Source of the DNA: Strigomonas culicis
Lineage: Eukaryota; Euglenozoa; Kinetoplastea; Trypanosomatida; Trypanosomatidae
Length of the DNA stretch: 17,715 nt
Direction: 5' to 3'
Assembly: GCA_000482145.1 (NCBI GenBank)
Contig: AUXH01000407.1
Coordinates: forward strand, 1-17,715
Shown: piece after piece, positions 461-17,715 of the stretch
How the letters are laid out: every line of letters starts with the position of its first letter
Position numbering within the stretch: the first letter of the stretch is position 1
Position numbers and translations under genes: made by a program
Notes under the pieces: generated by a model
Seen by the model: only the letters and a program-made list of their open reading frames with translations
Told to the model about the DNA's origin: nothing
Databases searched by the model: none

Positions 461-3334
461 CTAAACGCTGTTGTCCATAATACTGAGGCGTCGCTCCAAC
501 GGCTCCTCATTCTTTTCCGCCCATGACTTCAGCAACGCCGTTTCCTCCTTCAGAATATTATTTTGTGTCTGTTTATCTTCGCTGCTCAACTTGCCGGAGC
601 GAAGGCTCTCATGCGCTGCGGCGATCTTAGAACGGGATTTACCCACAAGACGCCGCAGGGACCCGCGTTGCGGCGCCGGCACGTACAGTTCGCTCAACTG
701 CGTCGCAAGGCGCAGCGGGACGGTCGAGGCGGGATCCTTCGGGTCGACACTGGTGAACACAGACACATAGCTGCGGCTCTGCAAGAGATCCCGCAGCAGT
801 GGTAAGCCGCCCTCCGCGGTACCTGGCATCGACTCCTCGCACATCTGAAACTTGCTTTCTATCCCGATACAGGTCAGCACACTGACAATGCGGTCGGCCA
901 GCGGCGACTCGCTCGTGCGCGGGCAGAACTCCTCCGTGGGCACATGGCTAATGAGATCCGACATGGAGAGGTCCACCTTCTCCGTCTCCCCGGGGACCGC
1001 CGTCACGAGCGGCGCGCCCTCCTTCACCTGCATCAGTAGCCCCGTCACGACGAACGTGAGAGAGGCCCGCTCCTTTAGCAGCTTCTCGTCCTGCGGGCTG
1101 GACGCGAGCTTATTGTCCAGGCCCTCGACGAGGAGGGTCGCCGCCGTCTGGGCGGACATGAAGGCCTTGAGAAAGGCCTCGCGCGTCGCGATGAGGCGGT
1201 ACGTGACCCCGGCGAGCCGGCTGCCGTACACGGCGTCCGCGGTCTCGTTGTACGGGAGGGGCACCTGCGGCCCTTCCACCAAAAGGTCGACCATCTCGTA
1301 GGCTTTCCCACGTGGATACTTGACCTCCAGTGCGTCCGAGGAGCGCAGCTTCACAGCTGCAAAGGAGAGGTGAAATTCCGTCTGTGTGCCTGCGTCCTTC
1401 ATGCCAGACACCTTCTCCGTAATAAGATCGAGCAGACCCTGAATGGCGAACCAAGTAGGGGTTTCGAAAGGAGAGACAGAGGTGAGGGTGCTGTTGTCGA
1501 TGTTCAGCACCGCCGCCCGCCGACCGGATAAGAAAACAGTGATCAGATTACTTATTATCTTAGAGTCCACATAGGTCGAACCTTTGCGGTGCATCACCAT
1601 CTCGTGGACGTAGAACCGCTCGATCGACTCATCTTCCTTCGTGACACGCACATCGGTGCACACCTCTCCGTACAGCTTGAGCGGGTAGGTGCGCTCGTCC
1701 TCCTTCATGCCCTTCTTCTTGCCGATCATCAGCTTCTTCTCGTACAGCCCCAGCAGCGCGGGGTGGTAGAATCCTGGCCGCTCCTCCGGTCGCGACCCTC
1801 GCCAGTCCTCCGACTGCGACTCTCGCCGCGGGGGTGGCCGGGACGCCTCCGCGTCCCTCGCCTCCGCCGGCGGCACGGCCACTCGCTGCGCAGCCGGGGC
1901 AGCCGCGTGCACCGCCGCCGGCTCCTTCGTGGGGACGGCGACCGTGGGCGCTTGCGTCTCGCCCGCCTCTCCACCGCGGACGCCTTCCGTCACCGTGTTA
2001 AAGAAGCGCCGCTCGGCAGCGCCCCTCTGCAGGTCCATCGCCTGTCGGTGCCGCTCGGCCGCAATGCGCTCCTCGGTGACGCTCTCTCGCACGATTTGCT
2101 CGTTCTTCGCGCGGATGTATTCGGCGGTGCGCTGCTGCGCAAGGCGCTCCTCTTCCATCTTCTTTCGCGCTGCCTCCTCCTCCTCGCTGAATTGAGGCTT
2201 GAAGCGCGAGTTGTGCGCGAGAATGCTGTTGCCCCTTATGCGCCCATTGCCTGCGGTGGCGTTGCCCATATCGGGGGCTGGCCCACCCGCCGCGTGCTCC
2301 GGCGCCACGCTGCCACGCAGCACCCGCGGCACAGCGGGCATTTCCTCGCTCAGCTGGGTCGGCACGACATCGGTGTGCAGCGCCTCCCTGCCACCCGACG
2401 GTCGCTGCAGGATGCTGCCCATCTGCGAGGAGGACCCTTTGCGCAGGTTGGGGAGTGCGCCGGTGCTTTTCTGGCGCTTAAAGCTCGCAGCCGGCTGAAT
2501 TGCATTGGATGCGCGACCAATCGACGGGGCTTGCACGCAAGGGAGGGAGCTGTCCATCGGAGGCGGAGGATCCATGTGCGTCGGCTTGTAATTAACGGGA
2601 GACTCGTTGCCGGCTGCAGGTGGCTGTGGAAAGTGCTTCAACATCTGAGGCATCAGCTCGCGGGGAATGAAGAAGGGAAAGGGCGGGATGAGCAGCGGCT
2701 GGCCGTCGTGTAGCGCGAGCACCGGGAGCACGGGGAGCTGCAGCAGCCGCTGCGCCTGCTCCGGGGGCATTGGGCAGCTTGGCGCCGCGTTCGCGAGGGG
2801 CGCCAGCTGCAACGGCGCGGTGCGCAGGGTGCCACGCGAAATAAACGAGGAGCGGGTGGGTCTCATCGTCTGGCTGCGGTTGCGCGTAAAGTCCTTCATA
2901 CTCTTTAGGTGCTGCTCCTGCGAGCCTGAGTCCCGCTTAGGCCGTCGCCGATCGGCTAGAGGATCAAGCTCCTTATCGGCATCGGTGGGCTCGGAGGACG
3001 ACTTGCGCATGTGCAACACGGAGAAAAACGAGGATTTTCTCCTGTCCTTTCCCGCATTCTCCCCCTTTGTGGTTTTATCCTCTTCCTTCTTCACCTCATC
3101 CTTACCCTTGTCCTTGCCCTTGTCCTTCTCCTCCTTCCCCTTCTCCTTTTCCTTACCCTTGTCCTTTTCCTCCTTCCCCTTCTCCTTTTCCTTACCCTTG
3201 TCCTCCTCCTTGTCCTTCTCCTCCTTTCCCTTCTCCTTTTCCTTACCCTTGTCCTCCTCCTTGTCCTTCTCCTCCTTTTCCTTCTCCTTTTCCTTGTCCT
3301 TATCGGGCTTTTCTTCTTTAATGTGACGGGTCAT
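461..3334 (-). CDS. Divergent member of the pseudo-kinesin-like family with Lys/Glu-repeat N-terminus (957 aa)
   Basis: No named family recognised. The open frame extends to 3409, but the codon there is GTG. The first ATG is at 3334, seven bases after a polypyrimidine-AG site, so I start there. Residues 6-90 are a Lys/Glu repeat. Residues 90-370 are disordered and rich in Ser and Pro, with basophilic sites such as RRKSS and KRQKS. Residues 378-445 are a charged, heptad-like probable coiled coil rich in Glu, Arg and Ala. Residues 545-957 are globular and align in order with the paralogues at 6414, 12070 and 16013. The position equivalent to the kinesin P-loop (about residue 604) reads SGRRAAVLNIDNS and has lost every nucleotide-binding residue. 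The terminal signature is reduced to PQRGSLRRLV, and the P-x4-P-K-x-Y tail of the other copies is missing. It is the most divergent copy and the last in the array. A structural, non-catalytic role is inferred. Gene certain, kinship likely. Confidence 0.88.
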   Translation of the reverse strand: MTRHIKEEKPDKDKEKEKEKEEKDKEEDKGKEKEKGKEEKDKEEDKGKEKEKGKEEKDKGKEKEKGKEEKDKGKDKGKDEVKKEEDKTTKGENAGKDRRKSSFFSVLHMRKSSSEPTDADKELDPLADRRRPKRDSGSQEQHLKSMKDFTRNRSQTMRPTRSSFISRGTLRTAPLQLAPLANAAPSCPMPPEQAQRLLQLPVLPVLALHDGQPLLIPPFPFFIPRELMPQMLKHFPQPPAAGNESPVNYKPTHMDPPPPMDSSLPCVQAPSIGRASNAIQPAASFKRQKSTGALPNLRKGSSSQMGSILQRPSGGREALHTDVVPTQLSEEMPAVPRVLRGSVAPEHAAGGPAPDMGNATAGNGRIRGNSILAHNSRFKPQFSEEEEAARKKMEEERLAQQRTAEYIRAKNEQIVRESVTEERIAAERHRQAMDLQRGAAERRFFNTVTEGVRGGEAGETQAPTVAVPTKEPAAVHAAAPAAQRVAVPPAEARDAEASRPPPRRESQSEDWRGSRPEERPGFYHPALLGLYEKKLMIGKKKGMKEDERTYPLKLYGEVCTDVRVTKEDESIERFYVHEMVMHRKGSTYVDSKIISNLITVFLSGRRAAVLNIDNSTLTSVSPFETPTWFAIQGLLDLITEKVSGMKDAGTQTEFHLSFAAVKLRSSDALEVKYPRGKAYEMVDLLVEGPQVPLPYNETADAVYGSRLAGVTYRLIATREAFLKAFMSAQTAATLLVEGLDNKLASSPQDEKLLKERASLTFVVTGLLMQVKEGAPLVTAVPGETEKVDLSMSDLISHVPTEEFCPRTSESPLADRIVSVLTCIGIESKFQMCEESMPGTAEGGLPLLRDLLQSRSYVSVFTSVDPKDPASTVPLRLATQLSELYVPAPQRGSLRRLVGKSRSKIAAAHESLRSGKLSSEDKQTQNNILKEETALLKSWAEKNEEPLERRLSIMDNSV
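3065..3319 (-). repeat. Lys/Glu/Asp-coding tandem repeat, almost pure purine on coding strand
   Basis: Encodes about 85 residues of EEKDKEEDKGKEKEKGK-type units at the N-terminus of the 461-3334 product. Two 51-base copies (3191-3241 and 3242-3292) differ at one base. Shorter copies lacking four residues precede 3191. The coding strand is nearly all A and G over some 240 bases. Confidence 0.85.
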
Positions 3335-3341
3335 CGGTGCA

Positions 3342-3372
3342 CTAGTAACAGTAGGAAAGAGAATACGAAAAG
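3342..3372 (-). promoter_or_regulatory. Proximal candidate splice acceptor for the 461-3334 gene
   Basis: The minus strand reads a 21-base pyrimidine-rich tract (3372-3352), then ACTGTTACTAG with the AG at 3343-3342, leaving a 7-base leader before the ATG at 3334. If used, the GTG-initiated extension to 3409 would be outside the mRNA. A distal alternative lies at 3466. Confidence 0.35.
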
Positions 3373-3465
3373 GTTCTCGTTTCAAAGTTGTGTACGTTAC
3401 AGTACGCACGAGGTATTTCTATTTCTTGCTAGTATAGGTGTTCGCTTGTAGGTTGAAATGAGCAG

Positions 3466-3563
3466 CTCATCAAAAACAGCAACAAAAGGAATAATAATAA
3501 TAATAAACGTTCAACATATTAAGAAACCGGCGAGATAAACAGAGAGAGAGAGAGAGAGAGAGA
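3466..3563 (-). promoter_or_regulatory. Distal candidate splice acceptor: (TC)n tract and first AG
   Basis: A pure (AG)n run at 3541-3563 is (TC)n on the transcribed strand. The first AG after it is at 3467-3466. The resulting leader of 131 bases contains no ATG before 3334. The same arrangement, with (TC)n about 70 bases from the first AG, is seen upstream of the 6414-9908 gene. Confidence 0.45.
3541..3563. repeat. (AG)n microsatellite
   Basis: Pure AG dinucleotide run, (TC)n on the transcribed strand, upstream of the 461-3334 gene. Confidence 0.95.
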
Positions 3564-3677
3564 ATGTATACAGAAAGGCAATCTGGGTAGTTGATTTCTT
3601 GTCAATAGTTTAATCTTCGACAATATCTAGATATAATCTCAAGCGTTACTTTTATAATATTATTGTTGTTGTGTGTA

Positions 3678-3683
<6 letters not shown>

Positions 3684-3724
<41 letters not shown>
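3684..3724. repeat. (TG)n microsatellite
   Basis: About twenty TG repeats, preceded by TGT-rich sequence. It marks the left edge of the GC-richer island at 3725-4150. Confidence 0.95.
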
Positions 3725-3726
<2 letters not shown>

Positions 3727-4796
3727 AACTATGCTTGTCCGAAATGGACGTGCGCATCTTGTGCACCCTCTTCGTTCAGGAAGCAGTCCACCGTGAGTAT
3801 TGGTGCCCAAGTTGGGGACGTCCAGTCCTTGACGCTGATATCCGTATTATGGAAACCATGCGTGTGTGTGCTTCAAACTCTCGCGTTATGGTGGAACGAG
3901 GAGGTGCGGCAAACACATCAACACCTTGCGTGGCACGAAACGCCCTAGTAGTTCCACCATCGCTGCACTCCATCTAACAGGCACTATCATCTCTGGTGTA
4001 CATGTGCTCTCCATTGCAGCTGTAGACAGCGCTCCGCCTATAATATGACGACATCCTACGCGTGTACCCCACTGCGGTACAATGTCGCGCTGGCAGCAGC
4101 AGTGTGAAATGAGAAACCTGGCCCGGCGGAGCTATGAAGCTACCGGCGTACTACACACAAAAATGCTGAACAACCTTGTAGCAGAAAACAAAGCCATCTT
4201 TCGTAGATTCAAAACAAAGAGAACCATAAAAGGGAAGAAAAGCACATGAAGTGGTTGTCAATGCGTACAAGAAGAGTAGCGTTGCCATCAAGACAACACA
4301 GTCGAAGCTAAAGGGGGAAAAAGGAGTGGACTCCACAAAAATACTACTCAATCCCCAAAAAAAACGGCAAATCAATACAATGAGGAGTGTAAGATACACT
4401 CAGTTTTCTTTTTTATTATTATTGTACATAATTACCTATACATACATCAACACTGTAAAAGGAAATGTAAAGAGAAAAAAAGAAAGAGAAGAAGGTAGTA
4501 CTCCTTACTCCGTGTACAGATATGTATGATACAAAAAAAAAAAGTGAAAGGGGAAGCAACTATAACGGGGCCAGTGGCATATCAGAGCGGGATGGGGGAG
4601 GGTGGTGTGACAGCGGAAAAATACAGGAGAAAGCAAAGAAAACTTGCGAAAGGGGGTGAAAAAGAGAATAAAGATAATTCCGAAAAAATGGAATGCGAAT
4701 GTGGTGAGTTGCAAGTCCCCTCCACCCCTTCCCCTTCCCTCACACTACTTACGTATATGCACGTTAACCCATTTCATGGAACTCATCTTACCTATT

Positions 4797-5318
4797 TTAA
4801 CGAACACTGGGTAGTCGGTTCGCATCATCACCGCTCTTCTGATTACCTTCATTGCGGCGTGCCGAGTTCTGTCGGCGGAGGGAACTCTGGCGGTTGAGTG
4901 CGCTGTTCCCTTGGCCCGCAGTGGAGCCCTGGCGCTGCTGCGGCGGCGACGCAGAGCCCGGAAGCTTCTTCTGCGATGGCTTCCGCGACGGCGGTAGATG
5001 TCCAGGATCCTGCAGGTCCTCGCCATTCAGCACCGGCACATAGTACGTTTTGTAGTATTCAACGTACTGCCTGTACCAGTCCGGGTACTGCCGGCGCAGC
5101 TGACGGTAGTACTGGATCATGGGCTGCTGGTAATTGGCTGGATAGAGTGCTAGTATCTGTGGCGGGGGGAAGGGCAGAGGTTCCTCATCCGCGGGGCCCG
5201 GCTGCTCGGCGGACCCTTGTGCGCCCTGCATCGGCTGCAGGTGGTGCGGGCGCTGGTGCGCGTCCTGCGCAAGACCGTTCGTCGCGCCCTCATACCCGCT
5301 CGCTCCAGCCTGCTGCAT
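4797..5318 (-). CDS. Small Tyr/Gln/Pro-rich hypothetical protein (173 aa)
   Basis: Not recognised. It starts at an ATG with a 75-base leader that contains no upstream ATG, after a clean CTGCAG acceptor behind a 36-base polypyrimidine tract. The N-terminal 60 residues are Gln, Gly and Pro rich. Residues about 64-88 form a dense aromatic and basic segment, including QYYRQLRRQYPDWYRQY and followed by EYYKTYY, possibly an amphipathic helix. The C-terminal 60 residues are Ser, Arg and Gln rich, with repeated basophilic sites (NRQSS, RRQNS). There is no signal peptide, membrane span or cysteine cluster. It lacks the globular module of its neighbours but sits between two of them on the same strand, so it would be co-transcribed. 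GC content is high, as in the other genes. No function can be assigned. Confidence 0.75.
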   Translation of the reverse strand: MQQAGASGYEGATNGLAQDAHQRPHHLQPMQGAQGSAEQPGPADEEPLPFPPPQILALYPANYQQPMIQYYRQLRRQYPDWYRQYVEYYKTYYVPVLNGEDLQDPGHLPPSRKPSQKKLPGSASPPQQRQGSTAGQGNSALNRQSSLRRQNSARRNEGNQKSGDDANRLPSVR

Positions 5319-6413
5319 GTGTAACGGGGTAGAAGTGTGGTGGTGGTGGTGGTGGTGTTAATAGCTAGTTTTTGTGTGTGTGTGTGTTTACTCCTGCAGG
5401 GTGTAAGTGAAGCACGCAATCATAAGAAAGCGTGATACAGTGTAAATGAAATAAGTCAAGAAGAGAAAGAGAAAGAGAGGAGAGAAGAATAGAAAAACAC
5501 AACACAGTATGCCCGCAACCCACTTGGGAACAGGATGCCGGAGAGAGGCCATGGCCGCAGCAATAAGTGCACGAGGAGGTCGTGTGTGGAAATGAGTACA
5601 GGTGAAGAAGAAAAGCACTTCGCTCCTAACGCAAAGGTAACCATCACCTAGGAAAAGAGCCCTGCTCTGCTGGACGCCGAATAACTTGAAGAGTGAAAAA
5701 GAAAAAAAAACGACAAAAAAAAGAAACACTTAGGCTAGAAAGGCAAAACAAAAACACAAAAAAGTGAACACCAACATTAATAGCTTTTTATTTTTGAAAA
5801 TATATAAAGCGATAGAAATAAATAGGTTTTATACGATGAAACAACATGACTCCTCACTTGCAAAAGCAAAACTGATCCAAAAATAAAAGCAAGTGGTACA
5901 CAAAAGGTATCAGAAAAGAGAACAGCGACTGTAAAAAAAAAAAAAACCAACAATTCAAATTGGTCACTATTTGTCATAGAGTACAGACAGTGAAGAGGAA
6001 ACAGAAAAAAAAGGGGGAAAACATATGTACACCAATAAAGAAGAGTGTATATGGAATATCACCAATCCAATTAGCAAATAAGATTTTAAAAAAAGAGGAA
6101 AATAATGAAAAGAAGAGAGGGAAAAAAAAAACAGCACAAAGTCCAGCTAGTAATACATTCGAAACGCTGAATTTGGTCATGTATTTTTTTTCCTTGTTTT
6201 CTTCCGATTCGCTTATTGTTCTCATTATTATAGTCCTCTTGTATTGAAATTTTCTGCATATTACTTTTTTTAAAAACTCTCTTATTGTTCAAGGAAGACT
6301 GTTCTTCACGATCATGAACGACCGCAATGTATTTGCTGCGTACATATATGTGTATAAGTACAGGTTTGCCTAGATGTGTGAAGAACACAACTCATCTCAT
6401 ACTCCCTCTCCTT
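5319..6413. other. Intergenic region between the 6414 and 4797 genes
   Basis: AT-rich. Contains the acceptor of the 4797-5318 gene, a (TGG)n run near 5338-5356, a (GT)n run near 5374-5387 and several A-runs. The rest is likely the 3' UTR of the 6414-9908 gene. No gene seen. Confidence 0.5.
5394..5490 (-). promoter_or_regulatory. Splice acceptor for the 4797-5318 gene
   Basis: A 36-base C/T-only or nearly C/T-only tract on the minus strand (5490-5455) is followed by 60 bases without any AG and then CACCCTGCAG, with the AG at 5395-5394. The 75-base leader has no ATG and contains a (CCA)n run. It is the clearest acceptor in the window. Confidence 0.55.
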
Positions 6414-9400
6414 TTATTCCTTGGAGCCTCCGCTCTTGCGATACGTTTTGGGGTCGCGGTTCTGCGGGTCGGCGTACAGTGCCTTGTACTCGTTATAAAA
6501 GACCTCCATACTCTTCCGCCCCTTCAGGATGGATTCCTTCTCCTTGTCCGACTGCGCAGCGGCCAGTTTCTCGTCCGTCTTTTTCAGCGTCTCCTCCGCG
6601 AATGAGATGAATTTCTTGACACTGCAACTGCGAACGCTGCGGTTCGGCGAGGAGCGCAGGCGCTGGATGAGGTTGATGACCGCTGCGACGTTGGTGTCAC
6701 CTTGGTTGACATCACCGAAAAACAGCGTACAGCAGGGACCTCCCAGCGTGTACTCAAACAGCTCATGCGGCGCGTTAGGCTTCTTGTCCAAGATGTCCTG
6801 AAACACCTGGGGGTCCGTGGTGCTGGCCGCCACCAGCGAGCTTGTGTACACGTCGTTGTCGCGCACGCCCTTCAGAATGGCTGAGGCGAAGATAATCGGG
6901 TGCTCGTTCGGGCACTGTTGGAGGTACGTGGGGACCTGGTACAGCGCGCTGTTGATGGTCGACTCCAGCTGCAGCGGGGTGGGGGGCTTGATCATCGTTG
7001 TCTTGTACACCGTCGGGCCGAAGAGGGGTGAGAAAGCGACCGAGAGCTTCTTCGGCGCGTGCGCGACGTGCTTCTCCGAGTCGAGGCCCGTCAGCAGGTC
7101 CGCCAGCAGCTCGTTCCCCTTCACGAGCGTCACGCTAAGGCTCACCTCGGCGAAGGCGTACTTCTGCGAGGCGACGCTGATGAGCGAGGACACCATCCGC
7201 TTGTAGGAGAGCCACAGCGGCTGCTTGTCGAGCGTCTGCATCTCGTTCCACGAGACGGTGCCGATCACGGCCGTGTTGTTGCCGTTCTCGAACATGGACT
7301 GGATGTGGCCGACCTCCTCCGACAGGGTGCAGGTGCGCCAATCGTCCACCGCGCGGACTACAATCTCGTCCACGGTGCATTGCGGGCCGTCGACGGCGGA
7401 GATCGTCTTACCGTCGGGGCCGAGGTTGAAGGTGACGGTGCTGCCCACATGCGGGTCCGGGAGCGGGCTCACGACAAGCGCGACGTGAATGGGGTTCTCC
7501 TTCATGTGACCGGAGCTGTTGCTGCCGGTGCTCGTGCTGCGTTTGAGGGGCGGCGCGGCCGCGGCGGCCTGCGCACTGCCGCCGCCCTCCTCACCGGGGC
7601 CGACGCTGTACGGCCGCGGCGTGCAGCCCTGGGGGTTTGCCAGGAGCGCCTGGCTGTCGCTCAGCATGAGCTCGAGCTTCGCTACAAAGGCGGACTCGCT
7701 GCCCTTATCCGAAATGCGCTCGCGCTCCGCCTTCGCAAAGTTCAAGAAGCGCTCCACGTTACCGCTGCGCGGGGGTGCGATCACGAAGGCGCGCAGCGCC
7801 TCCAGCGAGGCCGCCGCCGCGCCGGCGGATGCGGCGTCCGCCGAGGGGGACAGGCAGAAGATGGCCATGGTGTGGCCTGCGCCCGCGAAGGTGCCCTTTG
7901 TGAGCTGGGAGGGCACTATGCGATCGTTGTGAATGCACTGGCAGAAGGCGTCCGGTCCCTGTGACACGTGGCTAAGGAAAATCCGAATGGAGGCCAGGAG
8001 GACGTCGTTGGCGCCGCCCTTGGGGCTGGGGTGCACCTGCTTCGTGACCGCCTCGACGCAGACGACAGGAAACTCCGCGAGCGCCTCTGCTGACGTCGCG
8101 CGCTGCACGACGGCGCGCACCTGCTCCTCGCCCTGCGCCACGCCCTTGATGGACAGAGACTTGAGGTTGAGGAAGCACTGGCTAAAGAGGGGATGCGACC
8201 CAATCTCCGGCACCTTCAGGTCCGCCGTGTTCTCCACAAAGTCGCGCGCCTCCGTCGCCGACTTGAAGCCCGCACAGTAGAGCTCCGTGTCGAAGTAGCC
8301 GTCCTGCGCCGTGTTCGCCGCCTCGAGCTGCCGCAGCGGATCGATGGCAAGGCGCGCGAAGAGGTCCAGCGCGAGCCTCTGGTCGCCCGGCCGCGCGCCG
8401 TACGCAATGAGCACCGACGTGTTGTGGCCCACCTGCATGTGCTGCAGGAGTGAGGCGTAGTTCGTCCCGCCCAAGAAGGCCGGCTCATCGCCAGCCTGGA
8501 GAACCTCCGCCACCTCCAGCTCCTTGCCGGCCACCCGCAGCGTCCTGGGGTTCGACTCGTGCGGGGCAATGGTGACCGTGCCGTTCGGCTGCGTCAAGAG
8601 CACGGAGACCGAAATGGGCTCCTTCTTGATGATGTTGCGGCTGCTGCGCACGCCCTCCAGTGTGGCGCACGGCGTGATCGCCGGCGGCACCGCCGCACTC
8701 GTGCCGTTCGCGGGCAGTGGATCACTTTCCGATCCGTTCTGCGCCACCGGCTGAGGCTGCGGGCTCTGAGGGGGCTGGCTCGGACTATCCTGTGGCGGCG
8801 CTGCCAGCTGCGGCTGCGGCGGCGGTGCAACCGGCGGCGGCGGCTGTGCGAACGGGTGGGGTGGCTGGGCGACCTGCTGCCGCTGCTGGGCGAACTGTTG
8901 CTGTTGCTGTAGCTGTCCAAACTGCTGTTGCTGCTGTGGCAACGGTTGCGGTGGCTGCGGTTGCGGCATGAAGCCGGAGCTCATCGGCGGCACACCGGCG
9001 CCGATGTTATACATGGAATTCCGGCCGTACATGCTGTTGAGACCACTACCGTACATGCTCCCCCCGACACCACTGCCGTACATGCTACCGTTGAACAAGC
9101 TGTGCTGGGAAAAGTTGTACATGGTGCCTCTCATGCCGTACATGCTGCCCGTCATACGGCTGGGGCTGTACATGCTGCCCGTCATGCTGCTGGGGCCGTA
9201 TATGCTGCCGAGACTGGCGCCGTACAGGCTACCGAAGACGGAGGCGGGGCGCGAGTACATGCTGCCAAACCTTCCCATGCCGTACATGGAACCCATGGGG
9301 TTCCCCATGGGATGACTCATGTTACCCATCCCACCCATACCATACATGGACCCCATGCCGTACAGAGATCCCCTCATTGGCCCTCCCATCTGTTGCATGG

Positions 9401-9908
9401 GCATCATCGGGGCACCCATCATGGGACCCCCCATCATCGATCCCCCCGGCATCCGGGCACCCAACATGGGCCCCCCCATCATGCTGCCCATGCCCGTACC
9501 CATTCCCATGCCCATAGTCGACCCAAAACGGTTTATTCCTACATTGCTGATGGTGCGGAAAGGGGGTTGGTTTTGCTGCCACATCTCATCGGCAAAGCTA
9601 CTGTGATCTAAGTTCACAGCATATTTCCCCTGGTCTGGCACCGCGCACACAAAGGCTGCGGTTTCGTTCGTGAAGCCACTATTCATAGAGGGCGGATTGG
9701 CCGCGGGGACTATCGGCACGGCCGGCGGCGGTGCTGGTTTCATGTATGCGGCATCCGACTCCACGCTGCCGGAACGAGAAGAACGTCCCTTTCTCTCGCT
9801 CGACGAACCCGTGCCCTTCTTACTGTCCTTGCTGGAGAAGGAGCCGGACCTCTTACTCTTCTTGCTTCCCCCCTTATCGGAGCCCGTCTTAGATTTCTTC
9901 GAGGGCAT
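6414..9908 (-). CDS. Two-module pseudo-kinesin-like protein with SMYG-repeat region (1164 aa)
   Basis: No named gene recognised. The start ATG at 9908 follows a leader without upstream ATG. Residues 1-50 are a Lys/Ser-rich basic tail. Residues about 128-312 are Met, Gly and Tyr rich with many GSMYG-type motifs. Residues about 312-420 are Gln then Pro rich. Module A covers about 425-765. Its P-loop-like site is GHNTSVLIAYGARPGDQ at 494, where a kinesin has GxNxTxxAYGQTGSGKT; the Gly-Lys-Thr end is gone. It also has GAGHTMAIFCLSPS, resembling kinesin GGNxxTxMIxxxSP, and ends with PPRSGNVERF at about 707 and NPQGCTPRPYS. Module B covers about 803-1157. It opens with HVALVVSPLP, like the kinesin first strand VxVRPL, has GNNTAVIGTVSW at 876, LGGPCCTLFFGDV near the end, then SCSVKKFISF and DPQNRDPKTY. 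Neither module can bind nucleotide in the canonical way. It probably arose by internal duplication or fusion. Homology to kinesin is inferred from motif order. Confidence 0.9.
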   Translation of the reverse strand: MPSKKSKTGSDKGGSKKSKRSGSFSSKDSKKGTGSSSERKGRSSRSGSVESDAAYMKPAPPPAVPIVPAANPPSMNSGFTNETAAFVCAVPDQGKYAVNLDHSSFADEMWQQNQPPFRTISNVGINRFGSTMGMGMGTGMGSMMGGPMLGARMPGGSMMGGPMMGAPMMPMQQMGGPMRGSLYGMGSMYGMGGMGNMSHPMGNPMGSMYGMGRFGSMYSRPASVFGSLYGASLGSIYGPSSMTGSMYSPSRMTGSMYGMRGTMYNFSQHSLFNGSMYGSGVGGSMYGSGLNSMYGRNSMYNIGAGVPPMSSGFMPQPQPPQPLPQQQQQFGQLQQQQQFAQQRQQVAQPPHPFAQPPPPVAPPPQPQLAAPPQDSPSQPPQSPQPQPVAQNGSESDPLPANGTSAAVPPAITPCATLEGVRSSRNIIKKEPISVSVLLTQPNGTVTIAPHESNPRTLRVAGKELEVAEVLQAGDEPAFLGGTNYASLLQHMQVGHNTSVLIAYGARPGDQRLALDLFARLAIDPLRQLEAANTAQDGYFDTELYCAGFKSATEARDFVENTADLKVPEIGSHPLFSQCFLNLKSLSIKGVAQGEEQVRAVVQRATSAEALAEFPVVCVEAVTKQVHPSPKGGANDVLLASIRIFLSHVSQGPDAFCQCIHNDRIVPSQLTKGTFAGAGHTMAIFCLSPSADAASAGAAAASLEALRAFVIAPPRSGNVERFLNFAKAERERISDKGSESAFVAKLELMLSDSQALLANPQGCTPRPYSVGPGEEGGGSAQAAAAAPPLKRSTSTGSNSSGHMKENPIHVALVVSPLPDPHVGSTVTFNLGPDGKTISAVDGPQCTVDEIVVRAVDDWRTCTLSEEVGHIQSMFENGNNTAVIGTVSWNEMQTLDKQPLWLSYKRMVSSLISVASQKYAFAEVSLSVTLVKGNELLADLLTGLDSEKHVAHAPKKLSVAFSPLFGPTVYKTTMIKPPTPLQLESTINSALYQVPTYLQQCPNEHPIIFASAILKGVRDNDVYTSSLVAASTTDPQVFQDILDKKPNAPHELFEYTLGGPCCTLFFGDVNQGDTNVAAVINLIQRLRSSPNRSVRSCSVKKFISFAEETLKKTDEKLAAAQSDKEKESILKGRKSMEVFYNEYKALYADPQNRDPKTYRKSGGSKE
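8968..9530 (-). repeat. Met/Gly/Tyr (SMYG) low-complexity coding region
   Basis: Residues about 128-312 of the 6414-9908 product. SMYG, SLYG and SIYG motifs recur at irregular spacing, first in a Met/Gly background and then in a Ser/Gly background. The stretch is degenerate rather than a clean tandem array. Confidence 0.7.
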
Positions 9909-9985
9909 ATTGCCAAGACAGAACTAATAGAGTAGCACGGGAAGAGTACACAGGAAACCAAAAATAAAAAATAACACAAAACAAG

Positions 9986-10107
9986 CTACTCAAACGCACA
10001 GAAAAAAAAAAAAACTGGAAGAAAAACGCATACAAGAAGACAACGAGAAAAGGAATAGATAAAACAAGGACAGCCAATAGAAACAGAGAGAGAGAGAGAG
10101 AGAGAGA
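9986..10107 (-). promoter_or_regulatory. Splice acceptor region for the 6414-9908 gene
   Basis: On the minus strand, (TC)n (10107-10085) and a T-run (about 10014-10002) precede candidate AGs at 10016-10015, 9990-9989 and 9987-9986. Leaders from the last two, about 77-80 bases, contain no ATG before 9908. Which AG is used cannot be decided from sequence. Confidence 0.5.
10085..10107. repeat. (AG)n microsatellite
   Basis: Pure GA dinucleotide run, (TC)n on the transcribed strand, about 180 bases before the start codon at 9908. Confidence 0.95.
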
Positions 10108-10629
10108 TGAAGATCGTTTCAAGGGAAGCCGCATGATTCATAGCGGGACACATAGAACGCTTTGATAATAGGTATTCCAATAATGAGCAAATACGTGTCC
10201 CATAACACACAAGTACACTTTATCAGAATCGTTCGTGTCTTTTTCTTTTTTTCCATGAGTATTGGGAAGCGAAAAAAAAACAAAAGAACGTATGTGTGTG
10301 TAAGAGAGAGCGGATACTACTCCGCACAAATGCTGATGGAAATAGTTAAAGAAGAGAAATGGTGAACGGCAAAGCGTGAAAACCACAAGAGAAAGTGAAA
10401 GTAAAACAGGAGAGAAAAAAAGAAATTGGTATCAGTATGTCACATACATAATGCAGTCAAACGCAAGCCTAAACAGAGGAGAGACGTAAACCGCAAACAG
10501 ACTCAGTAACAAAGGAAATGATACCCTGAATTCAAGAAGGAGACAATCGATCGCAACATGCATTCTTTCGTTGCTCGGGAAAGAAGTAAAGGTGTACCTG
10601 CACACCTCCGCCCGAAAAAAAAAACACCG

Positions 10630-10812
10630 TCAGGTTGTCCCTATGGTCAGAAAGTCAAATGCTCTCTCTAGCTGGAACGGAAGCACAATGAAGAAAGAAC
10701 ACTTCCACGTAGTATTGTCCGTGCATCCCGGATCAACCGTAGACGCCATCCGATAGACACGCGCGGCTTCGCATGATAATAACATTAGGCACCCGCCAGC
10801 ACCACGAGGCAT
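10630..10812 (-). CDS. Possible small ORF (60 aa) with its own CT tract and acceptor
   Basis: First ATG at 10812 (a GTG opens the frame four codons earlier). A roughly 44-base CT-rich tract at 10881-10925 is followed by a TATAG acceptor at 10870 and a 57-base leader free of ATG. GC content is clearly higher than in the surrounding AT-rich DNA. The product begins MPRGAGGCLMLLSCEAARVY, contains three cysteines and a hydrophobic stretch FFIVLPF, and matches nothing I recognise. It could be a short gene, a decayed gene remnant, or a chance ORF in a long 3' UTR. Confidence 0.28.
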   Translation of the reverse strand: MPRGAGGCLMLLSCEAARVYRMASTVDPGCTDNTTWKCSFFIVLPFQLERAFDFLTIGTT

Positions 10813-10869
10813 CAGCTGGTCCACTGAAACGTAGGAGGGACAAGAATCTGCTGTCGCGAAGCAAGTACA

Positions 10870-10925
10870 CTATACATATAAAAAGACAAAAAGAAGAGAG
10901 AGAGAGAAAGAGAGAGAGAGAGAGC
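10870..10925 (-). promoter_or_regulatory. CT-rich tract and AG acceptor (candidate)
   Basis: The minus strand has about 44 bases of nearly pure CT, then TTTTTATATGTATAG with the AG at 10871-10870. No coding sequence of normal length follows, only the 60-residue ORF at 10630-10812. Confidence 0.35.
10894..10924. repeat. (AG)n microsatellite, interrupted
   Basis: AG run with one AAAG interruption, part of the pyrimidine tract described at 10870-10925. Confidence 0.9.
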
Positions 10926-12069
10926 GATTACAACATGGAATGCCATAATACAAGATAGTAATAAGAACAGGTAAACCCCTCCAAGGAGACAGTTGATAGA
11001 ATAGCCTACGTACACGTACTGTGCACAACAGTATATTCTATATTGACAACATATTTATTCTTTGTTCATTCAAGAAGATAGTGTTTAAAAGTAGTAAAAT
11101 AGTCAAATAAAACAGTTTCTAATGATAAAAATATATAAAAAAAACGTAGTTTGTGCTTACTAATTGTATTTTCTCCCATTTTTAACCGTCCAAAGTAAAA
11201 CTATAAATATATGTGAATGTTCATCTGTATACATATGTATCGGTACGCGTGGTTCCTTTCCCTAAAAAAACAAGGATGACAACATGTAACTCTTCATCTC
11301 ATCATTTTAGTTAATGTCAACAGAACGACCTTATCAGTATGAGAGAACTCGTGTACTTTATTATGTAGTACATACGTGTTCACGTCCATCTGCATAAAAA
11401 AAAAGGGTTAAGCTTATCGTTCTACATAACATTACTTGGATTCGATTCTGTAGTATTTCATGATCGCCAGTTCCTTATTTTTTTAATCAAAACGATTCTC
11501 TTTTATTCTTACACGATTGACGATTGACGATACCAACGAAAAGGAAAAGGAAAAAAAGTGTAAAAGAGTTTTGACAAAAAGAGGACCACAAAAGAGAAAA
11601 AAAAATCTATGCGGATATGTTCACAAAACTAATTATCTTCATACTAAATATTATCGTGTTTTATGATCTCATAGATTGGAAACTGAACAAAAACAAAAGG
11701 AGGAAAACCCTACCAACACTGAAAACAAAAAAAAATGAAAAGGTAAAAAAAAAAACAGAAATCAGATTGTATCTTTTTCCTTTTTCCTTTAACAACAACG
11801 AAAAAAAAAAAAGCGAGTAATGAATCAATAACAGAAGTGTGTGGAAGGTGTATAGCTAATCAAACTAATACAAAAAAGAAAAACATCGAAGCAAAGAAGA
11901 CAAAATGGAAAGGAAAAGGGGGGGTTATTCCATTCTACACAAATAGGTGGGGTTTTCTTCCTCTGTTATTTTCTTTTTTATGACGAAAGAAAGAGTTTAT
12001 ATATATGGACTGGAAAAGAGATGAGCAAACGAAATACGTTTTCCTCCTCTATCGTACCTTCACGGCCCC

Positions 12070-13696
12070 CTACGCGTAGGCCTTGGGCGCGACATGCTCC
12101 GGGTCCGCGCTAGCCTCCTTCGCGTCCTTCAGCATGAGCTCCATGCGGTTCACCATATTGTCCAGGCCCGCCCGCTTGTCCTCGGGCGCGCTCGCCGCCT
12201 TCTCCTTCCAGCGACCAAGCTCCTTCTCGGTGTACTCCACAAAGCGCTTGATGTTGCCGCTGCGCGGCTCCGTGTTCTTCACCTCGCGCATCTCCTTCAA
12301 GCAGTCGACCGCCTTCTTCGCGTCGTCGTCGTCGGCGGCGATCACGTTCGCGCACAGCGTCAGGCAGCCGCCGCCCACCGTGTAGCGGTACAGCTTGGCC
12401 GGCTCGCTCGGGCTCTTCGCCTTGAGCCCGGTGAAGTGCTCCACGGTCTCGCCGGCGATGGTGAGGTTGAAGGCGGACTGGTAGACCATGGTCTCGCCGT
12501 TCGCCTTGCGGGACTGCTGAAGGACGAAGTAGGCGCAGATGAGCTCCTTCTCATTCGTCGCGTTCTTGAGGCCGTCGTCGACTACCTTGAGGGCCTCCTC
12601 CACGGAGGTGATCTCCTTCACCGCGAGGTCGTTGATGGACGGGCCGTAGATGGGGGAGGAGGAGAGCTTCAGCCGGTCATAGGAAGCGCCGTCCTTGAGC
12701 AGATCCTTGCCGGAGTCCGCGTCCTTGATCGCCACCATGATGGCGAAGATCTTGAAGAAGTCGCCGATGTCCTTCAGCTTCTTCACCGACGTCGCAAGAA
12801 AGGTCTTCGCGAGGTCGATGGCATCGTTGCGCAGACCCTTACCGCAGCCGACGAGCAGCGCCGTGTTGTGGCCCTGAATCCACTGGCGGCGAATCTCCGA
12901 CAGGCACACGGATTCGAATGCCTTCTTGAGGTCGTCCGACTCGGTCACCTCGTCGAGCGTCACGTCCGTGCTGCCCGTCGTCACCGTCACCGCGTCCTTG
13001 CGCTTGTTCTTGGCCTCACTGCCGGTCTTCTTCACCACCGCCAGACCGCGGATATTGGTGCCGGAGGGGGCAGGGGCGACGGAGGCGGTGCTCTCCTTCT
13101 TCTCCACCTTCGGCTCTTCCCTCCTCTCCACCTTCGGCTCTTCCCTCCTCTCCACCTTCGGCTCTTCCCTCCTCTCCACCTTCGGCTCTACCTTCTTCTC
13201 CTCGACCACGATGATGGCAGGGGCGGCTAACGTGCGCGCATTGGCGGGCAGACTCTCCTCCTTCGGATCCTCCGCCTTCACCACCTTCTTCTCGGCTTCC
13301 ACGCCCTTGCTCTGCAGCGGCCTGACGTCGGCGCGGAGGAGGTCATTTCCGGCCAAGAAGCCATCACGGCGGGAGGCCGCATCGACCACGCTGTGGTACC
13401 CGCCGTACATGCTCCCGAAGCCACCGCCCATGCCGCCCATGCCGCCCATGCCTCCCATGCCGTACATGGAGCCCATCCCTCCCATGCCTCCCATGCCTCC
13501 CATACCGTACATGCTGCCCATGCCAAAGCCGCCCATCATGCTGCCAAAGCCGCCCATGCCGCCCATGCCACCCATGCCACCGTAGCTGCTACCCATACCG
13601 TACATGGAGTTGCCGCCACCGCCGAAGGAGCCGCCGTACAGAGAGCCGAAGCCTCCACCGCGCATAGAGCCAAAACCGCCCATGCCACCCATGCTA

Positions 13697-13749
<53 letters not shown>

Positions 13750-14526
13750 ACCCATGCCACCCATGGAGCCAAAGCCGCCCATAGCGTTCATGGAACCGAA
13801 ACCGCCCATGGAGTTCATGCCGCCGCGCATAGAGCCAAAGCCGCCCATGCCACCCATGGGCCCCTGACCCATGTTCATGCCGCCCATGGGTCCCTGACCC
13901 ATGTTCATGCCACCCATGGGCCCCTGACCCATGTTCATGCCACCCATGGGCCCCTGACCCATGTTCATGCCACCCATGGGCCCCTGACCCATGTTCATGC
14001 CACCCATGGGTCCCATCGGCCCTGGCGCCTTCGCGCCGTTCATGCCGGGAGGGGCCGCGGGGCCCGGGCCCTTGTGCATGTTCGGCTGGGGGTTGGTGCC
14101 CGGTGCAGGCGCCGCGTTTTTCGGGGGTGCGGCGGCGCTGGACGGCTTCTGGGCCATATTGGAGCCAGACGGCTTACGGGTCATGTTGGAGCCGGACGGC
14201 TTACGGGCCATGTTGGAGCCGGACGGCTTACGGGTCATGTTGGAGCCGGACGGCTTACGGGCCATGGCGGGGTTGGAAGGCTTACGAGCCATGTTGGAGC
14301 CAGACGGGCGGCGGGTCATGTTGGAGCCGGACGGCTTACGGGCCATGGCGGGGTTGGAAGGCTTACGAGCCATGTTGGAGCCAGACGGGCGGCGGGTCAT
14401 GTTGGTGCCGGACGGCTTCCTCTCAGGGCCAGAAGAGTGCCCCTTCTTGTCCTTATCGTGGCTCTTCTTGTCCTTATCATGACCCTTCGAAGAAGAAGGT
14501 TTGTCGTGAGAGGAAGTCTTAGCCAT
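12070..14526 (-). CDS. Pseudo-kinesin-like protein with RKPS-repeat and Met/Gly-rich N-terminus (818 aa)
   Basis: No named gene recognised. The start ATG at 14526 sits in the context CACCATGGC and has no upstream ATG back to 14716. Residues 1-34 are a basic Lys/Asp/His/Ser tail. Residues 35-133 are ten 9-residue units of the type [TA]RKPSGSNM plus a degenerate eleventh. Residues about 173-222 are five GGMNMGQGPM repeats. Residues 222-380 are Met/Gly rich with GSMYGMGGMG. Residues about 446-475 hold KVERREEP repeats. The globular module covers about 489-818: GHNTALLVGCGKG at 552 (P-loop-like, still GCGKG), PIYGPSINDLAVKEITSVEE (like the kinesin stretch before its fourth helix), FNLTIAGET where kinesins have LNLVDLAGSE (the switch II Asp is replaced), PRSGNIKRFVEYTEKEL at about 752, and a final DPEHVAPKAYA. 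Closest in sequence to the gene at 16013. A non-motile scaffold or microtubule-associated role is inferred, not shown. Confidence 0.9.
13103..13174 (-). repeat. Three exact 24-bp tandem repeats (KVERREEP)
   Basis: Units 13103-13126, 13127-13150 and 13151-13174 are identical, and a fourth is partial up to about 13190. They encode an eight-residue charged repeat, KVERREEP, in the linker before the globular module of the 12070-14526 product. Confidence 0.9.
13385..13860 (-). repeat. Met/Gly-rich low-complexity coding region (GGM, SMYG)
   Basis: Residues about 222-380 of the 12070-14526 product. Runs of GGM triplets alternate with GFGSM and GSMYG. The run at 13693-13758 is nearly pure tandem GGM. 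Confidence 0.75.
13861..14010 (-). repeat. Five 30-bp tandem repeats (GGMNMGQGPM)
   Basis: Five in-frame copies of exactly 30 bases. The three copies at 13921-14010 are identical; the two at 13861-13920 differ from them by one base each. They encode GGMNMGQGPM in the 12070-14526 product. Confidence 0.92.
14155..14424 (-). repeat. Ten 27-bp tandem repeats (RKPSGSNM-type) with a nested 81-bp duplication
   Basis: Ten 9-residue units of consensus [TA]-R-[KR]-P-S-[GN]-[SP]-[NA]-M. The triplet of units at 14236-14316 is repeated base for base at 14317-14397, so a three-unit block was duplicated recently. Confidence 0.92.
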
Positions 14527-14715
14527 GGTGATGGAAGCGAAGAGTAACGGATAGTGTTAGAGGTTGCTAGTAAATACGAGCGAGATGACAAGTTGTTCTT
14601 CTCGCTTTTTGATTTAATTAGCACGTGCTGTATAACAATAGCTATCGCTTTCTTCTTATTCTCAAACTTCTCGAGGTGAACAAGTACCAAAGAAATGAAA
14701 AGTGAAGGGGGTAAA

Positions 14716-14758
14716 CTGAAGGAAATAGATTAAAAACAAAAACCGAAGAAAAAAAAGT
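14716..14758 (-). promoter_or_regulatory. Candidate splice acceptor for the 12070-14526 gene
   Basis: The minus strand carries a T-rich tract (14756-14718) ending ATTTCCTTCAG, with the AG at 14717-14716. The 189-base leader is free of ATG. A weaker alternative, TTTACTAG with the AG at 14568-14567, would leave a 40-base leader. Confidence 0.42.
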
Positions 14759-15584
14759 AACTAATATATTAAAGAGTGGGTAGTTATGAGAGGAAGAAAG
14801 GTGATGCGACAGGAGCGGGAAGCACAAAAAAAGGAAACACGAACACATACGACAGAAACACCATATAGCGGACGGTACTCGGACGGTCATGACGACTCAC
14901 ACATTTTTTTTTTCGTTCAGAATGCGTGCTAATCATTGATAAAGAAAATAAAACTACAAAAAAAGGGTAATAAAGTAACAAAACAACAACAAAAAAGAGG
15001 TAGTGTGGGCATTGTGTTTCGTCTTGTGCATGGTACTGGAACGCTATAAGCAAGAATATCACCAGAGTTGATTTTCTTTTGCTTTCACATCGATTTTGCT
15101 TGAAAGTAGAAGTAGAACTGACACAGCACAATCCATGCATTTTGGGTTGAGTTATTTTCCTTTTTTTTTCCAAGAGAAAAAGTCACGCGGTTCAATCAAT
15201 TGGAAAAAAAAATGTGTAAAAGGGGGGAACTCTCATTATTATTGACCTTTCAGCATACAACTTGAGGCAAGACTATAAATACACTCTTTTTTTTTTCTTC
15301 ATACAGTTTCTTATGTCATTGAAAAGCTATAAACTAGTAATCAAAATCAACAGAAAAAAGGATTTTTCTCACAATAAACAGAACAATTTGTATATATGTA
15401 TATCAAAATACATCAAAATCGATAAAGCTCAAATATCAAAAGAAAACAAAAGCATTATTTTTCACTTTTCGGTCAAAAAAAAAACTTTTTTTTTTGCCAG
15501 TGTTAAATGCCAAACACTTCTTGTGTGTCCACGCGCTGATGTACTCAAATATACAGGTGCATAAGTATCCGTGCGTACACGCGC

Positions 15585-15631
15585 ATACACACACAAACAC
15601 ACACGCACGCACACACACACACGCACGCACA
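15585..15631. repeat. (CA)n/(CACG)n microsatellite
   Basis: CA repeat mixed with CACGCACG units between the genes at 16013 and 12070, next to a long A/G-rich tract. Confidence 0.85.
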
Positions 15632-16012
15632 ACAGGAAAAAAAAAGGGAAAAATAGAACAGAAGATCTTTTTCATACCAAAAAAAAAAAACCACATACAG
15701 AAAATAAAGAAAAGGGAAAACGAAGAGAGAAGGGTAATGAAGTTTTGCGGAAAATAAACAGGAAAAAAAAGGGAGAGAAAAAAAGAGAACAGTGGAATAC
15801 ACAAACTGAAATGCATTACACAGTCCTTTTCTTTTTTCGTCTCCAGAGATTCCCGTTGTCACCAACGCACATCTCCCTGAGGGTAAGTGTGCGCCTCTTC
15901 CACCTCGTAGCATAACAAGACGCTTCCGCAATGTATATGTGTGTCGATGTGTGAAGTGGTGCCACGGCGATAAAGATCGCTCCTGCATTAGACAGGCACG
16001 CGCGACGCGTCC

Positions 16013-17715
16013 CTACATACCGACGGAGTACCCCTTCGGCGTGGTGTTCATGGGGTTGTCCAGCATGGTCTGCGCCTCCTTGATCATCTCGTCCATGCGG
16101 GCGATCTGCGCCTCGCGCTGCTGCTTCTCCGAGTCGCTCACGGACGACAGCTTCTCCTTCTGACGCGAAATCTCCTTCTCGGTGAACTCGATGAAGCGCT
16201 TGATGTTGCCGCTGCGCGGCGGGCGGTTCTTCACCTCGCGGATCTTGCGCTCCGCCTCGAGGCCGCTGCGCGCGCCCTCGTCGTTGTTGCTGATGCAGAC
16301 GGCACTGACGCAGACGCTGGGGCCGCCGAGCGCGTAGCGGAACAGGCGGTGCGGCGACGAGGACGTCTTGTCCTTGATGTCGACGAGCATGCCCACCTCC
16401 TCGCGGAAGAGCGCCAGGCAGAGCGACGAGAGGTACACCTCCGCCTCGGAGCCGCCCTTCTTGACCTGCTTCAGCACAAGGAAGGCGCAGATGGGCTCCT
16501 TCTTCTCCTTCGCGGCCGCCACGCCCTCGTTGAAGATGCTCAGGCACTCGCTCGTGGTCTTGGCCACCTTCGTCTTGAGGTCCAGCAGGCACGGGCCGAA
16601 CACGGGGGAGGAGCCCAGCTTGAGCCGCGTGTAGTCGCCTGGTCCAAGCAGATCCTTGCCGTTCTCCGGGCCCTTGAGGGCCGCCATGTTGATGCTGATG
16701 TCGAACTTGGTCGACGCGTCCTTCTCGTTCTTCTCTAGCCGCTCGACGCACTTGCGGAGAAAGCCGCGCACCGCCTCGATGGAGGCGTCCGCCTTGCCGC
16801 TGCCGGCCGCGACCAGCAGCGACGAGTTGTGGCCGTTGAACCAGTTGCCGCGGAGCTCCGAGAGCAGCACGGAGTCCAGCTCCTCTGTGGGGCCGCTGTG
16901 GTCGAGCGCCTCGTCGCACTCGAAGGTCTCCTTCTTGCCGCCCTTCTCGTACACGACCGTGTTGGGGGTCGTGACCTTCACAAAGCTGCCCCTGTCCTGC
17001 TCCACGACCAACAGCGTGTGCACGTCGTAGTTGGACGGCACCTTCGCGCGCTGCTTGCCGTCGCTCGTCCTGGTCTCCGAGCCGCTGCGGGCGCCCGCAC
17101 CCGCCGCCGCGGGCTCCGCCGTGTCCTTCTTGCGCTTGATGGTGATCGCGTTGGACTGGGAGTTGCTCGTGGCCACTACCGGTGCGGTCTTCTCGCGCAG
17201 GTACAGGTGGTTGCCGCCGCGCCGGCCGCTGCGCTTGACCTCATCGCCCTCGTCGTAGCTGCCAATGTTGGGGCACAGGTCGTCAATGGTGATCTGCGCG
17301 TTCGAGGCGAAGCCGCCACCACCGCTGATGCTGCTGCGCTGACCGTTCGCCGGCATGTTGGGGTTCAGGCTCATGTTGGCGAGGCTGCCCCACTGCGCTG
17401 CGACGCTCACGGGGTCCGCCTGGCCCATGCCGCCCATGCCATACATGCTGCCCATGGGGCGGTACATGTTGCCGCCATACATCGATCCCATGCCGCCCAT
17501 GCCGCTGTTGCTGTACATGCTGCCCATGTTGTTCATCGACCCCATGCCGCCCATGCCGTACATGCTGCTCATGCCCCCGCCGGGAGCGCCGGGAGCGCCG
17601 TAGCCTCCCATGCCCATCATCGAGCCGAAGCCCTGGGGGTTCATGGATCCGTAGGCGCCGGGGCCCATGGAGCCGTACGGGTTCCCCGCCGCGGCGCCCG
17701 CCGGGGCCGCGGCGG
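16013..17715 (-). CDS. Pseudo-kinesin-like protein, 5'-partial (566 aa visible)
   Basis: The frame is open to the window edge (AAAPAGAAAGNPYGS precedes the Met at 17668), so the N-terminus lies outside. Residue numbers count from that Met. Residues 1-95 are Met/Gly rich with GSMYGMGGMG motifs shared with the genes at 12070 and 6414. Residues 95-170 are a linker with basic patches. The globular module runs from about 170 to 551: NGHNSSLLVAAGSGKADAS at 278 keeps a GSGK core but has Ala where a kinesin has Thr; SPVFGPCLLDLKT follows; ALGGPSVCVSAVCIS resembles the kinesin LGGNxxTxMIxxxSP strand; then RPPRSGNIKRFIEFTEKEI at about 480, a roughly 45-residue charged helix, and the end NPMNTTPKGYSVGM. 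No DLAGSE-like switch II is seen. It is the least decayed copy. ATP binding remains conceivable and motor activity unlikely. Kinesin kinship is inferred from motif order. Confidence 0.88.
   Translation of the reverse strand, partial: AAAPAGAAAGNPYGSMGPGAYGSMNPQGFGSMMGMGGYGAPGAPGGGMSSMYGMGGMGSMNNMGSMYSNSGMGGMGSMYGGNMYRPMGSMYGMGGMGQADPVSVAAQWGSLANMSLNPNMPANGQRSSISGGGGFASNAQITIDDLCPNIGSYDEGDEVKRSGRRGGNHLYLREKTAPVVATSNSQSNAITIKRKKDTAEPAAAGAGARSGSETRTSDGKQRAKVPSNYDVHTLLVVEQDRGSFVKVTTPNTVVYEKGGKKETFECDEALDHSGPTEELDSVLLSELRGNWFNGHNSSLLVAAGSGKADASIEAVRGFLRKCVERLEKNEKDASTKFDISINMAALKGPENGKDLLGPGDYTRLKLGSSPVFGPCLLDLKTKVAKTTSECLSIFNEGVAAAKEKKEPICAFLVLKQVKKGGSEAEVYLSSLCLALFREEVGMLVDIKDKTSSSPHRLFRYALGGPSVCVSAVCISNNDEGARSGLEAERKIREVKNRPPRSGNIKRFIEFTEKEISRQKEKLSSVSDSEKQQREAQIARMDEMIKEAQTMLDNPMNTTPKGYSVGM
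17415..17713 (-). repeat. Met/Gly/Tyr low-complexity coding region, incomplete
   Basis: N-terminal part of the 16013-17715 product, with GSMYGMGGMG and SMYG motifs in common with the two upstream-facing paralogues. It continues past the window edge. Confidence 0.7.

Follow-up and report, generated by a model that had tools for sequence, protein, structure and literature searches.

Degenerate kinesin-type modules in an array of probable ARND-family genes of Strigomonas culicis

The closest described system is the ARND (Adhesion Related NTPase-like Domain) family of trypanosomatids, founded on KIAP4 (LmxM.32.2940; Owino et al., PNAS, 20 July 2026, PMC13416946). According to the main text of that paper, the family comprises 11 proteins in Leishmania mexicana, most of them from an array on chromosome 32, with nine genes in Trypanosoma congolense and eight in T. 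brucei; disordered regions and predicted coiled coils are present, and the best structural match of the NTPase-like domains is invariably kinesin, with a Walker A that is not conserved. Seven of the 11 L. mexicana members gave a strong signal at the adhered flagellum, as did all three tagged members of the nine in T. congolense, and deletion of KIAP4 significantly lowered attachment to glass and left the mutant unable to colonise the stomodeal valve of the sand fly (PMC13416946). The proteins were likened to septins, with protein-protein contacts as their proposed mode of action, and an analogy, and only an analogy, was drawn with the inactive calpain-like proteins of kinetoplastids, which are built on a different enzyme fold and have also lost catalysis, multiplied and become cytoskeletal (PMC13416946). 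The present subject is a set of four genes (A, B, C and E), all on the minus strand of one contig of Strigomonas culicis (AUXH01000407.1), whose entire 17,715 bases constitute the window. Their products carry modules resembling the kinesin motor domain, and with a probability of roughly 0.8 they are ARND-family proteins with dead kinesin motor domains that serve the flagellar adhesion plaque.

Open reading frames and a family hidden Markov model (HMM) placed five modules in the four genes (Table 1), at the places where the original prediction, made from the letters of the sequence, had put them (residues 545-957, 425-765, 803-1157, 489-818 and 170-551, partly in another numbering). Among the 88 open reading frames searched, the HMM, which was built from all clear modules and thus includes the sequences of E, B and C and excludes A, matched gene E with an E-value of 5.3e-152, B with 1.8e-151, C with 1.9e-124 and A with 2.6e-15 (best reversed frame, 0.094). 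A profile made only from E, C and the homologues P0001 to P0023 (P0001 is the window's own E; P0001 and P0024 are both the window itself) found B at 1.5e-55 and A at 3.4e-4. The module of gene A was the most diverged in the window, and with gene A as query no homologue was found at an E-value of 1e-3 or less among the 7999 candidates scored; its membership therefore rests on the family HMM and on profile-profile alignment with hhalign, which matched A to modules outside the window at 98.1% and both modules of B (B1 and B2) at 100%. No Pfam or NCBIfam family exceeded its cut-off in the window products.

In the genome of the same organism (17.7 Mb in 670 contigs for all own-genome searches), gene E gave 25 matches, mostly on contig C50. 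The own-genome module matches numbered 34 in 16 open frames, and 29 of these matches spanned more than 250 of the 372 model positions. Minus-strand genes of C50, of about 790 to 2,230 residues, held one to four modules each, and contigs C171, C102 and C519 held five further module matches. With the two pieces of gene A taken as one module and the fragments at C50:19573-22640 as one gene with one module, the genome contains about 32 modules in about 15 genes; these genes are arrayed, four on the present contig and about eight on C50, all on the minus strand. At C50:19573-23641 (minus strand), modules were split across adjoining open frames, which reflects an error of assembly or else a gene that is broken. 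A species was named for 18 of the 23 homologue matches retrieved, and all 18 were trypanosomatids; by its homologues the source probably lies near Angomonas, in the Strigomonadinae.

Profile comparison shows a kinesin motor domain to be the ancestor of the module family. A family profile from 21 of the 34 own-genome module matches, run against 177,635 distinct PDB sequences, returned 120 matches, and the best 60 of the 120 were all kinesins (top E-value 2.8e-12). Against a profile of 22 own-genome kinesins (picked from 30 saved loci for covering most of the motor, out of 57 PF00225 matches), hhalign gave 97.0% for the E/C-type modules, 97.9% for own-genome modules, 98.3% for modules outside the window and 98.7% for the pooled set, versus at most 35.2% for the reversed and 20 block-shuffled kinesin profiles. 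Over columns 32-345 of the 350 in the kinesin profile the E/C alignment was colinear; its GHN turn, SPxYGP strand and LGG strand fell at the places originally assigned to them from the kinesin motif order. In the reverse direction, the family HMM matched the 22 kinesins with a best E-value of 1.5e-11, many of them with the N-terminal and LGG stretches in the correct order, and a 2234-residue paralogue (C50:43342-50046) exceeded the cut-off of Pfam PF00225 (36.7 versus 29.3 bits). Group by group, the E and C groups aligned with kinesin at 96.0%; genes A and B, in these alignments, reach kinesin solely through the module family. Single-sequence searches of PDB with C and E found no kinesin.

Residues 200-566 of gene E, modelled with AlphaFold2, adopted the kinesin motor fold in a comparison that covers the listed families only (families such as myosin are outside it), as had been anticipated and here for module E alone. 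With the kinesin superfamily (PF00225; kinesin-3 KIF13B and KIF1A, kinesin-2 OSM-3, KIF15) the modules share a fold, in the case of module E, and a colinear sequence profile with a GxN turn ahead of the P-loop position, a VxGLxxxxV strand with its helix, LGG before beta-8, and alpha-6. An LGG-type pattern occurred in 22 of the 34 module matches.

Unlike kinesins, the modules lack the P-loop and both switch motifs (I and II) at the expected positions. GxxGxGK[ST] occurred in none of the 34 own-genome module matches versus all 22 own kinesins, and the looser GxxxxGK[ST] in one of the 34, at a position not established relative to the P-loop. Loose SSR (6/34) and loose DxAG (1/34) patterns, whose register is not established, compare with 22/22 each in the kinesins, where the strict forms S.RSH and D[LT]AGSE were present in 21/22 and 20/22; in the hhalign alignment of E, neither SSRSH of switch I nor DLAGSE of switch II appeared at the expected place. 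The claim that no copy has a full GxxGxGKT, an SSRSH or a DLAGSE is borne out, and the interpretation of the modules as degenerate motors is supported by the profile-profile comparison, the fold of module E and the missing motifs together.

The segment between beta-7, the expected site of DLAGSE, and LGG was also shortened. All 27 own modules measured had 28-33 residues there (genes E and C 29 each, the two modules of B 31 and 28) versus 59-81 in 22 of 22 own kinesins, and the segment had 29 residues in all 23 homologue rows (P0001-P0023, the first being the window's own E). The kinesin counterpart of this segment contains switch II and loop 11 as well as helix alpha-4 and loop 12, the main element for microtubule binding and for coupling ATP hydrolysis to the grip on the microtubule. 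The shortening to about half the kinesin length is a removal of about half of the switch II/alpha-4 region, and because it is uniform across diverged paralogues it points to a single ancestral deletion. This may be the physical change that ended motor life; if it is what defines the module, binding would be expected with plaque partners and with neither nucleotide nor microtubules. After alpha-6, where the neck linker would come in kinesins, the modules have a conserved, family-specific PPRSGN stretch and two C-terminal helices.

As in the ARND family described in the main text of Owino et al., the window genes form a trypanosomatid gene array and encode kinesin-type NTPase-like domains with an unconserved Walker A and low-complexity parts; the species ranges overlap, and both sets include a POMP-named member (PMC13416946). 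The T. cruzi homologue that clusters with gene C is named 'Present in the outer mitochondrial...' (POMP), and the Leishmania homologues of gene B, P0028 of L. mexicana among them, had 44-45% identity. This matching anatomy, species range and POMP name make it likely that the window genes are ARND members. They differ from the published sets in number (about 15 genes in this genome versus 11, nine and eight; PMC13416946).

Provided the window belongs to ARND, the family has already been published together with its kinesin-like fold and its role in adhesion (PMC13416946). None of the words 'motor', 'microtubule', 'switch', 'Angomonas' and 'Strigomonas' occurs in the main text of that paper, and four things go beyond it: descent shown from sequence with controls, the shortening common to the modules, the tree of modules and the occurrence in this organism (PMC13416946). 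A newly named adhesion family is tied in this way to the kinesin superfamily at the sequence level and extended to a trypanosomatid group unnamed in that main text, with modules about twice as numerous as genes. In the titles and abstract starts of open-licence literature, no previous description of a family of degenerate kinesins or pseudo-kinesins from kinetoplastids was recognised, and a single paper on KIAP4/ARND was found.

In the proposed protein plan, one to four dead kinesin motor domains come after an N-terminal part that is of low complexity or charged. The module would neither hydrolyse ATP nor walk and would act as a rigid bead that binds proteins; with tails of low complexity and several beads, a chain could make multiple contacts, and these would contribute to assembly of the intraflagellar plaque that attaches the cell to insect tissue. 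A role in adhesion in S. culicis is proposed by homology to L. mexicana and, for location, to T. congolense (PMC13416946).

Several points weigh against this account, and the main doubt is whether the four genes serve adhesion in this organism. The doubt arises because the T. brucei ARND member POMP22B, to which gene C is probably related, is mitochondrial and because no Crithidia fasciculata paralogue was upregulated in adhered cells, for which reasons some family members may not be adhesion parts (PMC13416946). The genes could then be kinesin-derived and act here as a general flagellar, cell-body or mitochondrial-surface scaffold, with adhesion confined to some members elsewhere. Functional diversity is expected by the ARND authors themselves, but the adhered-flagellum location of 7/11 L. 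mexicana and three tagged T. congolense members speaks for adhesion (PMC13416946), and a scaffold of this kind is considered unlikely, if still worth serious attention. In addition, the ARND identity is drawn from the matching anatomy, species range and POMP name, and gene A is outside the 27 modules measured for shortening.

The modules might instead be divergent kinesins that remain active, using other residues to bind ATP and either moving along microtubules or holding them. The kinesin fold of module E would suit this, as would the partial remnant in some E-type homologues (e.g., GKGKT in Angomonas deanei), but with the canonical P-loop absent throughout, the switch II/alpha-4 segment short in every own module measured and every homologue row, and no conserved Walker A in the predicted L. 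mexicana domains (PMC13416946), activity is highly improbable. Concerning descent, the profile-profile comparison suggested in the original prediction was positive for the E and C groups and failed for B1 (18.3%), B2 (6.3%) and A (0.2%) alone. Among the window products only C touched the Pfam kinesin model (sub-threshold E-value 0.15), and 4 of 21 modules scanned singly matched it at E-values up to 10; the remote homology had been seen from raw sequence where that model stays below its cut-off in every window product. These shortfalls would fit a fold unrelated to kinesin, P-loop-like or de novo alpha/beta, which arrived at the kinesin motif order by convergence, its resemblance being chance, an explanation judged already contradicted by the computed results and barely credible.

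The history of the kinesin-derived modules was approached with a FastTree phylogeny of 61 modules, each with more than 220 model positions (gene A, shorter fragments, P0001 and P0024 were left out). A 12-tip clade (support 0.859) united the second modules of several proteins, including module 2 of gene B, with one third module. Two further third modules formed a pair (0.928), and three C50 proteins had first or only modules that joined the C171 module (0.912). As second and third modules group by position across proteins, the tree suggests that the module chain is older than the gene duplication, which is to be taken as a lead, several deeper nodes being weakly supported and the sequences diverged. 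Support was 0.872 for the cluster of gene C with T. cruzi and T. theileri proteins and 0.912 for the group of gene E with proteins of T. congolense, T. conorhini, Leishmania, Phytomonas, Angomonas and others; A. deanei AGDE_09970, the nearest named homologue of gene E, grouped with it (0.99) and had 68% identity to its searched part over 95% of that query part. Since C and E each group with Trypanosoma proteins, they would have separated before Trypanosoma diverged from the other lineages. A fuller history has about even odds: one ancestral trypanosomatid kinesin would have lost switch II/alpha-4 once, tandem duplication into a chain of at least three beads would have preceded gene multiplication, and the resulting lineage-wide non-motor toolkit, to which the modules counted here belong, would build the adhesion plaque.

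Table 1. Positions of genes, modules and other features in the window (all on the minus strand; iE, independent E-value of the family HMM).
Feature	Position	Strand	Residues	Details
Gene A	461..3334	-	957 aa	Open frame; ATG at 3334; alternative GTG at 3409 gives 982 aa
Gene A, domains	461..3334	-		Lys/Glu/Pro-rich N-terminal half, then one diverged module; from composition and family HMM
Gene A, module	548..1654	-	561-929	HMM stretches 561-740 and 816-929, iE 1.5e-9 and 2.2e-8
Small gene between A and B	4797..5318	-	173 aa	Co-oriented, without module
Gene B	6414..9908	-	1164 aa	Two modules after an N-terminal part rich in Gly/Met/Ser/Tyr and in Gln/Pro
Gene B, module 1	7602..8627	-	428-769	iE 1.4e-72, sequence included in model
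Gene B, module 2	6435..7571	-	780-1158	iE 9.6e-79, sequence included in model
Gene B, GM/SMYG-rich stretch	8949..9548	-	121-320	24% Gly, 20% Met, 15% Ser, 7% Tyr; 6 SMYG
Gene C	12070..14526	-	818 aa	Open frame
Gene C, module	12073..13152	-	459-818	iE 2.7e-124, sequence included in model
Gene C, GM/SMYG-rich stretch	13372..14046	-	161-385	46% Gly, 24% Met; 4 SMYG
Gene E	16013..17713	-	566 aa as read	5' end open at contig end
Gene E, module	16022..17122	-	198-564	
Gene E, P-loop relic	16793..16834	-	294-307	GHNSSLLVAAGSGK; no Thr/Ser after GK; from alignments
Gene E, shortened beta7-to-LGG segment	16322..16423	-	431-464	In kinesins: switch II, alpha-4, loop 12
Gene E, GM/SMYG-rich N-terminal stretch	17429..17713	-	1-95 as read	Runs off contig; 33% Gly, 20% Met; 3 SMYG

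Low complexity of the N-terminal parts was shown by their composition. The GM/SMYG repeats of B, C and E were also seen in C50_7171, in C50_24736 and in the homologues inspected, which range from Leishmania to Trypanosoma, and their spaced tyrosines give the impression of resembling condensate-forming low-complexity domains. Two tandem arrays were present in gene C at 13816-14454 (minus strand), one with a 30-base unit (GPMGGMNMGQ) and one with a 27-base unit (KPSGSNMAR-like). A PDB match of C to eIF3A (E-value 0.0013) arose from the GM-rich stretch and was rejected; the other PDB matches of C and E had E-values above 1.

The small gene between A and B matched only itself in the own genome, with no second copy, and had no Pfam or NCBIfam match above cut-off; its product has a Tyr/Gln-rich centre (YPANYQQPMIQYYRQLRRQYPDWYRQYVEYYKTYY). 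Rfam and tRNA scans of the window found nothing. Elsewhere in the genome, a 1004-aa frame on contig C15 (L048; 1350-4364, plus strand) reached 20.7 bits with PF00225, below the cut-off, and 2.4e-5 with the kinesin HMM; it is outside the module family (family HMM E-value 3.4) and is possibly a separate degenerate kinesin. Pyrimidine runs on the coding strand, which are expected in trypanosomatid gene clusters, were present at 3300-6420, the only intergenic gap examined.
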